Shown: one piece after another, positions 4,120 to 7,515 of the stretch | How positions within the stretch are numbered: position 1 is the stretch's first letter | Layout of the letters: each line of letters begins with the position of its first letter | Assembly (NCBI GenBank): GCA_028703835.1 | Contig: JAQVMB010000014.1 | Location: 1 to 38,778, forward strand | Reading direction: 5' to 3' | Origin: Candidatus Peribacteraceae bacterium | GTDB lineage: Bacteria > Patescibacteriota > Gracilibacteria > Peribacterales > Peribacteraceae | DNA: 38,778 nt | Notes under the pieces: generated by a model | What the model saw: the letters and a program-made list of their open reading frames with translations, nothing else | What the model was told of the DNA's origin: nothing | Databases searched by the model: none | Position numbers and translations under genes: made by a program

Positions 4120-6165
4120 GTGCAGCTCTCCACTCCGCTCGCGGCCGTCCTGCGGACGACGAAGGACCACCTCCGGGCGCTGGAAGGCATCGGCCTGCGG
4201 ACGGTGCAGGACCTTCTCCTGTATTTTCCCCGCGCGCACGAAGACCTGAGCGCCATGCATACGATAGCGACCGCGGGATTGGACGAGAAAGTGACGATCC
4301 GCGGGACGTTGCACCACATCAAGCTCGTGCGCATCCGAGGCGGCAAGCAACTCGTGACGGCGAAGTTCCAGGATGCGGAAGGGGACTCCGTCGACGTGGT
4401 GTGGTTCAACCAGCCGCACGTGAAACGGATGATCGAGGAAGGAGGAGACGTCGTCCTCACCGGCAAAATCGTGGAGAAGGGAAGCAAGCTCCAGTTCCAG
4501 AGCCCGCAGTTCGAGAAGGAAGGCGCCAAGCCGCTCATCCACGCGGGACGCTTGGTGCCGATCTATCCTCAGCACGAGATCATCAATACGAAGTGGCTGC
4601 GCGAGAAGATGATGCTGGCCAGGGACGCCATCGACCTCCTCCCGGAAACGCTGCCGCAGGAAGTGGTGGATGAAGAACACCTCGTTTCCCGGAAAGACAT
4701 GGTGCGTTTCCTGCATTTCCCGGACCGTCCGGAAGACGTCGCCGGCGCGTATGACCGCCTCGCCTTCGAGCAGATGTACGACCTGCAGCGGGAGGCGCTG
4801 GAGCGGAAGAGAGAATGGCAGGGGACGCACCAGAAGCGGCTGCGGACGCCCATGGACATCGAGCTCATCCGCGCCCTCTTCGCCTCGCTGCACTTCACGC
4901 CGACGAACAGCCAGAAAATCGCCATCTACGAAATCCTGCGGGACATGGAGAAGGACGTGCCGATGTCGCGGCTGCTGGAAGGGGACGTGGGCTCGGGCAA
5001 GACGCTCGTGGCCGCCTCCGTAATGGCCAACACCGTGCGCCACGGCGGGCAGTGCGCCCTCATGGTGCCAACGGAAGTGCTGGCGCGGCAGCATGCGGAG
5101 AGCCTGTCGCGTTTACTGCTTCACTTCCACACGTACCTCCAACAGCAACAGCATCCCGTTGCGGCGGCATTCCGCCAGCCCGTCGTCACGCTCCTCACCG
5201 GCTCCACGCCGCGCGCGGAAGCCGACGCCATCAAGCGCAACCTCGCCTCCGGCCTCACCGACATCGTCATCGGGACGCACGCGCTCATCGAGGACACCGT
5301 GCGGTTCACGGACCTGCGGCTCGTCATCGTGGACGAGCAGCACCGCTTCGGCGTGATGCAGCGCGAACGCCTGCGGGAGAAGGGGAGCCCGCACTTCCTC
5401 TCCATGACGGCCACGCCCATCCCGCGCACCCTCGCCCTGACGGCCTACGGCGACCACGACCTGTCGGTGCTGCTGGAGAAGCCCGGCCGCCGCCAGGCCA
5501 TCGACACGAAAGTGGTGGCGCCCGGCGACCGGAAAGTGATCGAACTCTTCATCGACCACCAGATCCGGGAAGGACGTCAGGTGTTCGTCATCTGCCCGCT
5601 CATCACGGAGAGCGAGGAGCTGGACGAAGTGCGTAACGTCGAACAGGAGGCGAAGCGGCTGCGCGCGGCGTTTCCCCGACGCCGCATCGCCATGCTGCAC
5701 GGCAAGCTGCCGCCGCCGGAGAAGCAGGAAATCATGCGCGCTTTCCGCGACAAGGCGTCCGATATCCTCGTCTCCACTTCCGTGATCGAAGTCGGGATCG
5801 ACGTGCCGAACGCCACGATCATCCTCATCGAAGGAGCGGAACGGTTCGGCCTCGCCCAGCTCCACCAGCTTCGCGGACGCGTGGGACGCGGCGACCACAA
5901 GAGTTACTGCTTCCTCTTCACCACCCAGCAAACCCAAGCATCATCGCCTCGTTTGCGAGCCATGGAACAGTATGATTCGGGCTTCATGCTCGCGGAGATG
6001 GACCTGCGACTGCGCGGCCCCGGCGAAATTTTCGGCACGCGTCAGAGCGGCATCCCCGATTCCTTCATGCGATCGCTCCTGAAACCGGAACTGATCGCCC
6101 GGGCGCGGCGGGCGGCGGAGCGGGTTCTCTCGCCGGAGGGAAAGAAGCTGGAATCCGTCCTGTAA
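4120..6165 (+). CDS. recG: ATP-dependent DNA helicase RecG
   Basis: RecG remodels stalled replication forks and branch-migrates Holliday junctions. From the GTG at 4120 the protein is 681 aa, the normal RecG length, beginning (M)QLSTPLAAV followed by the wedge/OB domain (VTIRGTLHHIKLVRIRGG, LVTAKFQD). Helicase motifs: Walker A GDVGSGKTLVAA (about residue 288), DEQHRFGVMQRE (about 405), MTATPIPRTLALT (about 429), the C-terminal lobe with VSTSVIEVGIDVPNA, and QLRGRVGRG motif VI, then the RecG tail. The reading frame stays open far upstream (to 3253), but that part overlaps two minus-strand genes and is not RecG-like. The gene stands alone, divergent from the cupredoxin-like gene. Confidence 0.96.
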   Translation: MQLSTPLAAVLRTTKDHLRALEGIGLRTVQDLLLYFPRAHEDLSAMHTIATAGLDEKVTIRGTLHHIKLVRIRGGKQLVTAKFQDAEGDSVDVVWFNQPHVKRMIEEGGDVVLTGKIVEKGSKLQFQSPQFEKEGAKPLIHAGRLVPIYPQHEIINTKWLREKMMLARDAIDLLPETLPQEVVDEEHLVSRKDMVRFLHFPDRPEDVAGAYDRLAFEQMYDLQREALERKREWQGTHQKRLRTPMDIELIRALFASLHFTPTNSQKIAIYEILRDMEKDVPMSRLLEGDVGSGKTLVAASVMANTVRHGGQCALMVPTEVLARQHAESLSRLLLHFHTYLQQQQHPVAAAFRQPVVTLLTGSTPRAEADAIKRNLASGLTDIVIGTHALIEDTVRFTDLRLVIVDEQHRFGVMQRERLREKGSPHFLSMTATPIPRTLALTAYGDHDLSVLLEKPGRRQAIDTKVVAPGDRKVIELFIDHQIREGRQVFVICPLITESEELDEVRNVEQEAKRLRAAFPRRRIAMLHGKLPPPEKQEIMRAFRDKASDILVSTSVIEVGIDVPNATIILIEGAERFGLAQLHQLRGRVGRGDHKSYCFLFTTQQTQASSPRLRAMEQYDSGFMLAEMDLRLRGPGEIFGTRQSGIPDSFMRSLLKPELIARARRAAERVLSPEGKKLESVL

Positions 6166-6222
6166 ACGCATGACGATCCTGCGCTTCCTGATGCGATATC
6201 TTCTGTTCGTGCCCGTCGATGA

Positions 6223-6250
6223 TTGACTTGATTCCGACAACGGATATTCT
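6223..6250 (+). promoter_or_regulatory. Sigma70-type promoter upstream of candidate leader RNA
   Basis: TTGACT (6223-6228), a 16-bp spacer and TATTCT (6245-6250). Predicted transcription start is near 6257, about 105 nt before the terminator hairpin at 6360 and about 155 nt before the ORF at 6414. Confidence 0.5.
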
Positions 6251-6252
6251 TT

Positions 6253-6384
6253 GCCTCGTGCAAGTGCACACCTCCACACGCGGCATGATGCAGGCGATGA
6301 TAATGTCCCCTCTGCGAGGCGGGTGTAGGTCGTAAACGTTATCCTCCCACGTCACCCAACCCTCGCACCTGCGGGGGTTTTTTT
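6253..6384 (+). ncRNA. Candidate structured leader or small RNA with competing hairpins
   Basis: Between a plausible promoter and a strong intrinsic terminator lies about 130 nt with no convincing ORF. TGCGAGG (6313-6319) plus GGGTG (6321-6325) can pair with CACCC (6353-6357) plus CCTCGCA (6361-6367). That pairing uses the same bases as the 5' arm of the terminator (CCCTCGC, 6360-6366). The two structures exclude each other, as in an attenuator or riboswitch expression platform. I do not recognise a known riboswitch aptamer, SRP RNA, 6S RNA or tmRNA signature. It could instead be a free small RNA ended by the terminator. Confidence 0.45.
6360..6384 (+). terminator. Rho-independent terminator
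   Basis: CCCTCGC (6360-6366), loop ACCT, GCGGGGG (6371-6377, one G-T pair), then seven T. It lies 30 bp before the ORF at 6414, so it either ends a small RNA or recG transcript or attenuates the ORF. Confidence 0.75.
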
Positions 6385-6413
6385 ATTTCTTATCCCATTT
6401 TCCCCACTTCTCC

Positions 6414-6608
6414 ATGGTCAATATCCTGTCTCTCGAAACGCCTGATGGCAGCTTGGTCCCGGTGAACGCAGCTGAATTCCCGAAAGGGACAACTCTGCAG
6501 CATGCCGATGGTGCGTTTCGCGTCAAATCCGCCGAGCAACCGGAGGCGGTTGCCAACCTCATCCATGCCGCCACGGAAGCGACACTCCTGAATTCAAAGC
6601 CCGATTGA
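6414..6608 (+). CDS. Small 64-aa hypothetical protein
   Basis: The ORF starts ATGGTCAATATCC, 30 bp after an intrinsic terminator. The 64-aa product begins MVNILSLETPDGSLVPVNAA and ends LIHAATEATLLNSKPD. It is soluble, without signal peptide or Cys, and seems to hold a short beta-rich part (ILSLETPDGSLVPV, GTTLQHADGAFRV) and a C-terminal helix (EAVANLIHAATEATLL). I do not recognise a family. Codon use matches neighbouring genes, which favours it being real. Its position after a possible antiterminator structure suggests read-through control. No Shine-Dalgarno site precedes it. Confidence 0.55.
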   Translation: MVNILSLETPDGSLVPVNAAEFPKGTTLQHADGAFRVKSAEQPEAVANLIHAATEATLLNSKPD

Positions 6609-6628
6609 TGATTGCTGAGGACTTGCCG

Positions 6629-6655
6629 GGAGAAGGAGCGGGTGACTCCTTCTCC
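6629..6655. repeat. Perfect 10-bp hairpin upstream of the Pro-rich protein gene
   Basis: GGAGAAGGAG (6629-6638), a 7-nt loop and CTCCTTCTCC (6646-6655). No T-tract follows. It lies between the 64-aa ORF and the promoter-like GCTACACT (6698-6705) of the next gene; it could be a terminator for the small ORF or one of the dispersed palindromes. Confidence 0.5.
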
Positions 6656-6728
6656 GCGCTCGCCTCGGAAATGCGCTTTCGGCATCGGATACCCGCTGCT
6701 ACACTCCGAAGTACTTTCCCATCCCGGT

Positions 6729-7403
6729 ATGGCCGATCAGACGAATCCGCCCAATCCTCCCGCTCCTCCCCGCCCCGGCGACCCCGTCCCCGAAGGGGGA
6801 TTGGATCCGACGCAAGTTTTCGGCTCGCCGCCGCCCCCTCCGGGTGCAGGCCAGCCTCCCATGGGACAAGCACAGCCTCCGGCGGGGCAACAGCCCGCGG
6901 GGCAGGATCCCGCAGCCGCTCCGGTGAAAGACAACAGCCCAAAACCGCCGCCGCCGGGCGTCGCGGCCACGAAGGAAATGGGCTATGACGATGAGGACAT
7001 CAAGATCATCGCGCAGGTGGGCAACTACCGCTTCGGGACCATCGCCGCGACGTCGAACAACGCCGACATCGTCATGCCCGCCCATCCCGACACGACGTTC
7101 GACCAGGAATCGTTTCTCACGCTCCTGCGGGGGAGCATCTCTCTCACCCGCGACGAGAAGTGGCGCATCATCCAGGCCATCCCCAAGCTCAGCCAATTCC
7201 AGATCGACGAGCTCCAGAAGATCCTCCAGGAAGAGAAAGTGAAGTTCTCCGAGCTCAGCCCGAAGCACCTCCTCCAACTCATGAAACTGGAGCAGAAACA
7301 CACGGAAGACTGGAAAGACCTGCAATCCCTGATGCGCCAGAAGAACGTGAAGCAGGAAGAGCAGTCCAAAGTCGATGACATTCGCAAGCAACTGGGACTG
7401 TAA
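6729..7403 (+). CDS. Pro-rich N-terminus, helical C-terminus hypothetical protein
   Basis: A 224-aa soluble protein. Residues 1 to about 75 are Pro/Gly/Gln-rich and probably disordered (PPNPPAPPRPGDPVPEGG and similar). The rest is charged and helical: DEDIKIIAQVGNYRFGTIAA, FDQESFLTLLRGSISLTRDEKW, then a long helix set (IDELQKILQEEKVKF, LMKLEQKHTEDWKDL, QEEQSKVDDIRKQLGL). There is no signal peptide. The start at 6729 follows a TACACT -10 box (6700-6705) with a short leader of about 17 nt. I do not recognise a family. A diverged second copy of its last 18 codons lies 55 bp downstream (7459-7515), so a tandem paralogue may once have existed. Confidence 0.75.
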   Translation: MADQTNPPNPPAPPRPGDPVPEGGLDPTQVFGSPPPPPGAGQPPMGQAQPPAGQQPAGQDPAAAPVKDNSPKPPPPGVAATKEMGYDDEDIKIIAQVGNYRFGTIAATSNNADIVMPAHPDTTFDQESFLTLLRGSISLTRDEKWRIIQAIPKLSQFQIDELQKILQEEKVKFSELSPKHLLQLMKLEQKHTEDWKDLQSLMRQKNVKQEEQSKVDDIRKQLGL

Positions 7404-7418
7404 AGCGACGAAATCTCA

Positions 7419-7460
7419 ACCTCGGCGAAGTCCTGAGCGCAGCGAAGGACGGAGACGGGT
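7419..7460. repeat. CGAAG-type palindromic repeat between duplicated gene ends
   Basis: ACCTCGGCGAAG at 7419, then GTCCTGAGCGC...GCGAAGGAC (inverted GTCCT/AGGAC), ending GACGGGT at 7460. A similar block (ACCTCGGCGTAG...GCGAAGACGGGT) is found at 32350-32377 behind tRNA-Ala. Here it separates the stop codon of the 6729 gene from a second copy of its 3' end. Confidence 0.6.
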
Positions 7461-7515
7461 GAAACAGGAGGAACAGTCGAAAGTGGACGACATCCGGCAG
7501 AAGCGGGGCCTCTGA
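7459..7515 (+). pseudogene. Diverged second copy of the 3' end of the preceding gene
   Basis: Read from GTG at 7459, this encodes VKQEEQSKVDDIRQKRGL and a TGA stop. The preceding gene ends VKQEEQSKVDDIRKQLGL (7347-7403). Thirteen of the first thirteen residues match although at least eight of those codons differ at the third base, so the copy diverged while its protein sequence was conserved. It is in a different frame from the upstream gene and has no upstream body, so it looks like the remnant of a lost paralogue or of an alternative 3' exon-like tail. Confidence 0.65.

Follow-up and report, generated by a model that had tools for sequence, protein, structure and literature searches.

The element described here lies on the forward strand of the window (by which we mean the whole stretch of DNA that was analysed, 38,778 nt from an uncultured Candidatus Peribacteria bacterium with a very small genome), directly 3' of recG, whose stop is at 6165. 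It is followed by a gene for a 64-aa protein and by a second, longer gene. Its parts and the genes behind it are as follows.

6223-6228, + strand: -35 box TTGACT (promoter scan; same leader-relative position in relatives)
6245-6250, + strand: -10 box TATTCT, 16-nt spacer from the -35 box (promoter scan)
about 6257-6258, + strand: transcription start predicted from the promoter
6258-6335, + strand: leader ORF VQVHTSTRGMMQAMIMSPLRGGCRS, 25 codons with GTG start and TAA stop, predicted to be leaderless; homologous leaders in relatives
6285-6305, + strand: methionine control codons ATG ATG CAG GCG ATG ATA ATG; Met tract conserved in relatives
6306-6323, + strand: small 1:2 hairpin UCCCCUC-UGC-GAGGcGGG, competitor of the antiterminator (folding energy)
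6313-6325, + strand: region 2, antiterminator 5' strand (folding and swap tests), which a ribosome sitting on the stop codon would cover
6353-6367, + strand: region 3, antiterminator 3' strand (folding and swap tests), common to the terminator 5' arm
6358-6386, + strand: intrinsic terminator, hairpin 6358-6379 plus T-run (folding)
6414-6608, + strand: putative target of the control; encodes a 64-aa protein from a small, rapidly evolving family whose members sit at this position in relatives
6729-7403, + strand: next gene, conserved at the locus with or without the 64-aa gene

The promoter proposed by the first-pass annotation, TTGACT-16-TATTCT, is present and is the sole promoter-like site on either strand of 5400-7500, where shuffles lead one to expect 0.3. 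Its predicted transcript start falls on the leader start codon. A strong terminator had also been claimed and is indeed there, though it extends slightly further than was thought (6358-6379 rather than 6360-6377). It reads AACCCTCGCACCTGCGGGGGTT, followed by TTTTTATTTC, and at -14.5 kcal/mol (z -4.0) it was equalled or bettered by none of 200 shuffles. The claimed 100 nt or so of structured leader did not hold up, as 6257-6390 is not unusually structured (z -0.7) and consists mostly of the coding sequence at 6258-6335.

The mutually exclusive pairing on which the earlier interpretation turned is real. TGCGAGG.GGGTG (6313-6325), which is also the end of the leader reading frame, pairs with CACCC..CCCTCGCA (6353-6367) in a hairpin spanning 6312-6367 (-19.1 kcal/mol, z -2.3; 7 of 200 shuffles as good), and this pairing uses up the 5' arm of the terminator. 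By energy alone, the smaller hairpin at 6306-6323 is no better than chance (-6.8 kcal/mol, z -0.6). With four Met codons, the tract in the window is below the consensus of its relatives, two sites having changed to CAG and ATA. We also scanned 424 kb blindly (window included; about one third of the genome, in stretches) for a promoter followed by a short ORF that begins at the start site and by a terminator. This returned the window element and one weak match; the same scan recovers an arginine leader in this genome and many of the relatives described below. Further downstream, past the 64-aa ORF and before the gene that starts at 6729, there is a strong G+C stem at 6630-6660 (GGAGAAGGAG..CTCCTTCTCC), which lacks a T-run.

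Methionine leaders in related genomes

Relatives of the 191-bp region, aligned in one orientation, have in common a short ATG-rich reading frame that typically ends in ...LRGG.. before the stop. A covariance model (R1) built from 11 leaders and containing the terminator stem only matched 43 of the 74 family genomes (E <= 0.001), where a few of the weakest matches are due to chance or to leaders of other kinds, and it also matched genomes from other families in the class. Chance-like weak matches (L079, L080, L082, L113, L116, L117 and L119-L122) were excluded from the counts. In the last 20 codons of 52 Met leaders, ATG occurs 296 times in frame with the leader, and 0 and 4 times in the other two frames, a count that is partly selected because R1, having been trained on ATG-rich sequences, favours Met-rich matches. 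The leaders average 5.7 Met within the last 19 residues, and the codon between the Met groups is variable (S, A, H, Q, G, L, P, D) while the flanking ATGs are kept. The bias of R1 is answered in part by two sets of leaders. The loci L096 to L098 were found by protein search alone, as relatives of SAM hydrolases, and also bear Met leaders upstream (in L096 the peptide SMMMRLHILRG, which has no model match), and low-scoring R1 matches proved to be leaders with other codons.

The distance from the stop codon to the terminator is mostly 20-28 nt among the leaders. Tandem arrangements were also seen, with two Met leaders in a row in L063 and L064 and two Thr/Ile/Lys leaders in L114, and a second Met-containing ORF lies beyond the first terminator in L008, L009, L010 and L013. 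L018 (G034:C41) carries the leader MTLFASIVSLVVLTRS, whose promoter and terminator are laid out in the same way, and the short ORF that follows it has no assigned function.

A strong promoter precedes 52 leaders of all kinds, and in 49 of these an ATG or GTG lies 5-10 nt past the -10 box, where 7.4 would be expected; the GTG in the window is 7 nt past it. Given this spacing, the leader is probably leaderless, with translation beginning right at the 5' end of the transcript.

Both stems, for which the first-pass annotation had suggested a covariance search, are conserved in relatives and vary together. Duplexes of region 2 with its own region 3 have a mean energy of -25.2 kcal/mol, compared with -19.4 kcal/mol (sd 0.49) when the strands are swapped among leaders, and none of 10,000 permutations was as low. 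When each genus contributed a single Met leader (n = 33), a sampling that lowers relatedness among the leaders and does not remove it, the corresponding values are -25.1 and -18.6 kcal/mol (sd 0.60), again with 0 of 10,000 permutations as low. Changes on both sides of a pair were found in 7 cells of the antiterminator core (1.6 when shuffled), which is otherwise nearly invariant. The terminator stem has 16 such cells against 6.3 shuffled; as the alignment had been fitted to this structure, the count is biased in its favour. The antiterminator strands coevolve with their own terminators.

Genes behind the leaders

In relatives where the Met leader precedes MetA, a homocysteine S-methyltransferase or a SAM hydrolase, the identity of the control codons matches the gene that follows. 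MetA lies behind the leader of L107 (PF04204, 8.9e-53), and homocysteine S-methyltransferases follow the leaders of L103, L108, L109, L112 and L118 (PF02574, five tested, best 2.3e-40), with L105 resembling a near copy of L103. The protein behind the Met leader of L074 is a clear SAM hydrolase (PF01887, 3.4e-26; PF20257, 1.5e-11), and that of L104 matches PF01887 at 1.1e-9. A methyltransferase stands behind the tandem Met leaders of L063.

Many other leaders of the family precede divergent proteins of 300-370 aa, which on the basis of profiles and predicted structures we would place with the SAM hydrolases. Structures of SAM hydrolases are matched by an alignment of these proteins (A3). When the L088 protein was modelled with AlphaFold (pLDDT 87), the first 40 Foldseek matches of the model were SAM hydrolase, fluorinase or SalL-type proteins (best E 7e-11, TM about 0.5-0.6), and the other subgroups match the L088 protein by profile. 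Several Met leaders, that of the window included, precede proteins with no assigned function. In L025 (whose protein was read as L009:2-1390:-) and L067, the proteins behind Met leaders resemble FAD/NAD-binding enzymes by eye (motifs GKGPAALG and GGGPGAL); a Pfam search with the L025 protein returned no match.

Leaders with other codons show the same kind of correspondence. For instance, eight consecutive Thr codons (MSQRATTTTTTTTSR, L072, G030:C1:615662-615764) precede ThrS, the threonyl-tRNA synthetase (TIGR00418, 3.1e-182). A Lys/Thr/Met leader lies before an aspartokinase-like protein in L068, and by eye L069, L073, L075, L076 and L078 resemble it; one such leader reads MQHCSSMKKTTKMTSLPGKDGC. 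A single peptide of this kind carries codons for three end products of the aspartate family. In the window's own genome (G000:C21), the Arg-rich leader MVLARLHSLRRRLTSRR of L086 precedes a fusion of acetylglutamate kinase and GNAT acetyltransferase, with a terminator 27 nt past the leader stop; to judge from its sequence, this is an arginine attenuator in the same genome as the window element.

Members of the family of the 64-aa protein lie at this position in a dozen or so relatives (12 listed), and the copy in the window matches positional homologues with pairwise E values of 2e-9 and 5e-7. Close pairs among the relatives have pN/pS of 0.27-0.40, and the family is therefore protein coding. 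No known domain was found in Pfam or NCBIfam, a scan of the genome collection gave no relative, and a search of 59 genomes returned only the query itself. The neighbourhood of L074 has the same plan as the locus in the window, with a leader, an intervening gene and a third gene that is 61% identical to the one at 6729-7403; there the intervening gene encodes the SAM hydrolase in place of the 64-aa protein. The idea that the 64-aa protein is a remnant of a SAM hydrolase was rejected, as profile comparison was negative and the two are unrelated. No SAM hydrolase was found in the window's genome by Pfam or by a search with alignment A5, the latter run without a positive control.

The methionine and SAM economy of the same genome would be controlled elsewhere too. 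On another contig, a SAM-I riboswitch (RF00162, above gathering score; L144, G000:C28:12719-12822) lies upstream of metK, and SAM-I matches (E <= 0.001) occur in 45 of the 74 family genomes. T-boxes (RF00230) were found neither in the 74 genomes, in a search that detected its controls, nor at the window element. It would be natural to suppose that two sensors operate here, with SAM read by the riboswitch at metK and methionyl-tRNA by the attenuator in the window.

A probable translated sensor and its alternatives

We propose that the element at 6223-6386 works by ribosome-mediated (leader-peptide) attenuation of transcription, with Met codons as its control codons, and we put the probability of this at about 0.86. 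The parts of the element, their conservation, the coevolution of the strands and, in relatives, the match between codons and pathway were computed directly. From these we infer leaderless initiation, ribosome stalling and the direction of the response. RNA polymerase would start at about 6257-6258, so that the mRNA would be leaderless and its GTG would be bound by the ribosome directly. With an ample supply of methionyl-tRNA, the ribosome would reach the stop codon at 6333 and mask 6313-6325, the terminator (6358-6379) would form and transcription would end at about 6386. When methionyl-tRNA is scarce, the ribosome would halt in the Met tract (6285-6305) and leave 6313-6325 free to pair with 6353-6367. 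That pairing would block the terminator, and the polymerase would proceed into the 64-aa gene and possibly into the gene at 6729-7403, which may be co-transcribed with it.

Folding at equilibrium, with the leading edge of the ribosome placed 12 nt past the first base of the A-site codon, is consistent with this scheme. The mean probability of the terminator is 0.44 with the ribosome on the control codons and 0.93 with it on the stop, and 58 of 59 leaders change in that direction. When the spacer is shuffled, the control-codon value is 0.86 instead of 0.43 (p 4e-11). A few relatives do not switch in equilibrium folding (L034, L065, L106, L107 and L110). For the leader in the window, placing the A-site at 6285-6294 gives a terminator probability of 0.03-0.06, compared with 0.90-0.96 at Met 6297 and 6303 and 0.96 with the ribosome on the stop. 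Given that it is low only at 6285-6294, the simple equilibrium model switches only over the initial part of the tract; co-transcriptional kinetics could extend switching over the rest.

The earlier interpretation as a transcription attenuator was thus largely right, in that homology, coevolution of the stems and matched gene function in relatives all support antitermination control. It overlooked the ORF whose Met codons would act as the sensor.

A different possibility is that the terminated RNA of about 125 nt, or the leader peptide, is a product that acts in trans and that the downstream gene is incidental. Both the attenuator RNA and the leaderless peptide of Sinorhizobium trpL act in trans (PMC7298713), and the gene after the Met leader differs among relatives. 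However, that variation falls largely within methionine and SAM functions, plus a few unassigned families, and the terminator and its pairing strand have coevolved, which a stand-alone RNA would not need. We consider a product of this kind improbable.

The first-pass annotation had also offered a riboswitch, and a ligand-binding RNA operating the same terminator would fit the mutually exclusive stems equally, in a genome that carries a SAM-I riboswitch before metK. Yet it had recognised no known aptamer, and Rfam agrees: no family reaches the gathering score at the window element, no riboswitch appears at gathering or permissive thresholds, and SAM-I (RF00162) has no match at 6223-6413. What is conserved is a frame of Met codons and a stop at a near-fixed distance from the terminator, not an aptamer, and leaders of the same architecture vary their codon content with the downstream gene. 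The predicted sensor is thus the translated leader peptide, and we find a riboswitch more doubtful still than a trans-acting product. The least credible explanation is an ordinary recG terminator or plain promoter region with a coincidental Met ORF and pairings, which the position directly behind recG would suggest but which is contradicted, as far as sequence can do so, by the promoter between recG and the hairpin, by the occurrence of the element apart from recG in L008, L010 and L013, and by the blind scan and swap tests.

Beyond the single locus, we tentatively suggest, at somewhat less than even odds, that Peribacteria and their relatives have a general amino-acid starvation system of leaderless attenuators (Met, Arg, Thr and Lys/Thr/Met). 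Methionine shortage might then induce SAM hydrolases that recover methionine from SAM or, in some lineages, would instead induce a previously undescribed small protein family that includes the 64-aa product and shares in this response. To our knowledge, the cellular role of SAM hydrolases is unclear. Under this proposal, a lack of methionine would induce them and they would regenerate it from SAM or its inactive epimer, while the SAM-I riboswitch would restrain metK. The attenuator would likewise predict a methionine-related role for the orphan 64-aa protein.

Relation to known systems

Little is known of gene regulation in Patescibacteria, and the attenuators are a concrete, sequence-defined family of regulators there, tied to methionine in a genome family with no detected T-box. 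Attenuators of the leader-peptide type are classical in Proteobacteria and have also been described in Actinobacteria and Firmicutes (PMC1262725, PMC2965389); in the open-access literature we found none described in Patescibacteria. Both Met leaders and leaderless attenuator leaders have precedents, and this kind of attenuation is itself known. We did not find a description of a Met tract combined with a probable leaderless start, a clade-wide distribution and targets that include both SAM hydrolases and an orphan small protein.

Like the attenuators of amino-acid operons (trp, his, leu, thr, phe), the window element has a short ORF with control codons, overlapping alternative stems and a terminator shortly past the stop, and in relatives the codons fit the downstream pathway. 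It differs from them in its Met codons, its predicted leaderless start, its Patescibacteria host and the lack of an Rfam match at threshold, the best weak matches being Leu_leader (21 bits) and Phe_leader (19.6 bits), below gathering scores of 50 and 55.

A likeness in codons is seen with MetL, proposed upstream of metBA in Campylobacter jejuni; this peptide of 20 aa has 3 Met codons and is known from a few species of Campylobacter (PMC3847290). Its translation start signal and another Met-codon ORF, CJsORF19 (MMYQMR), are described in PMC11955535. As in the family described here, a short leader ORF with Met codons precedes methionine genes, and MetL lies on a short RNA that ends just past its stop codon. 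In contrast to MetL, the family described here is clade-wide, averages 5.7 Met in the last 19 residues, is predicted to be leaderless and has other targets.

The leaderless start itself has a counterpart in trpL/rnTrpL of Sinorhizobium meliloti, an attenuator whose leader ORF is at the 5' end of the transcript, as predicted here (PMC7298713). That leader has Trp codons, belongs to an alphaproteobacterium and has known functions in trans, whereas the leader in the window has Met codons. The SAM-I riboswitch (RF00162) is likewise a 5' RNA that controls the methionine and SAM economy, but it senses SAM by an aptamer, whereas the window element would be read through the translation of its Met codons.
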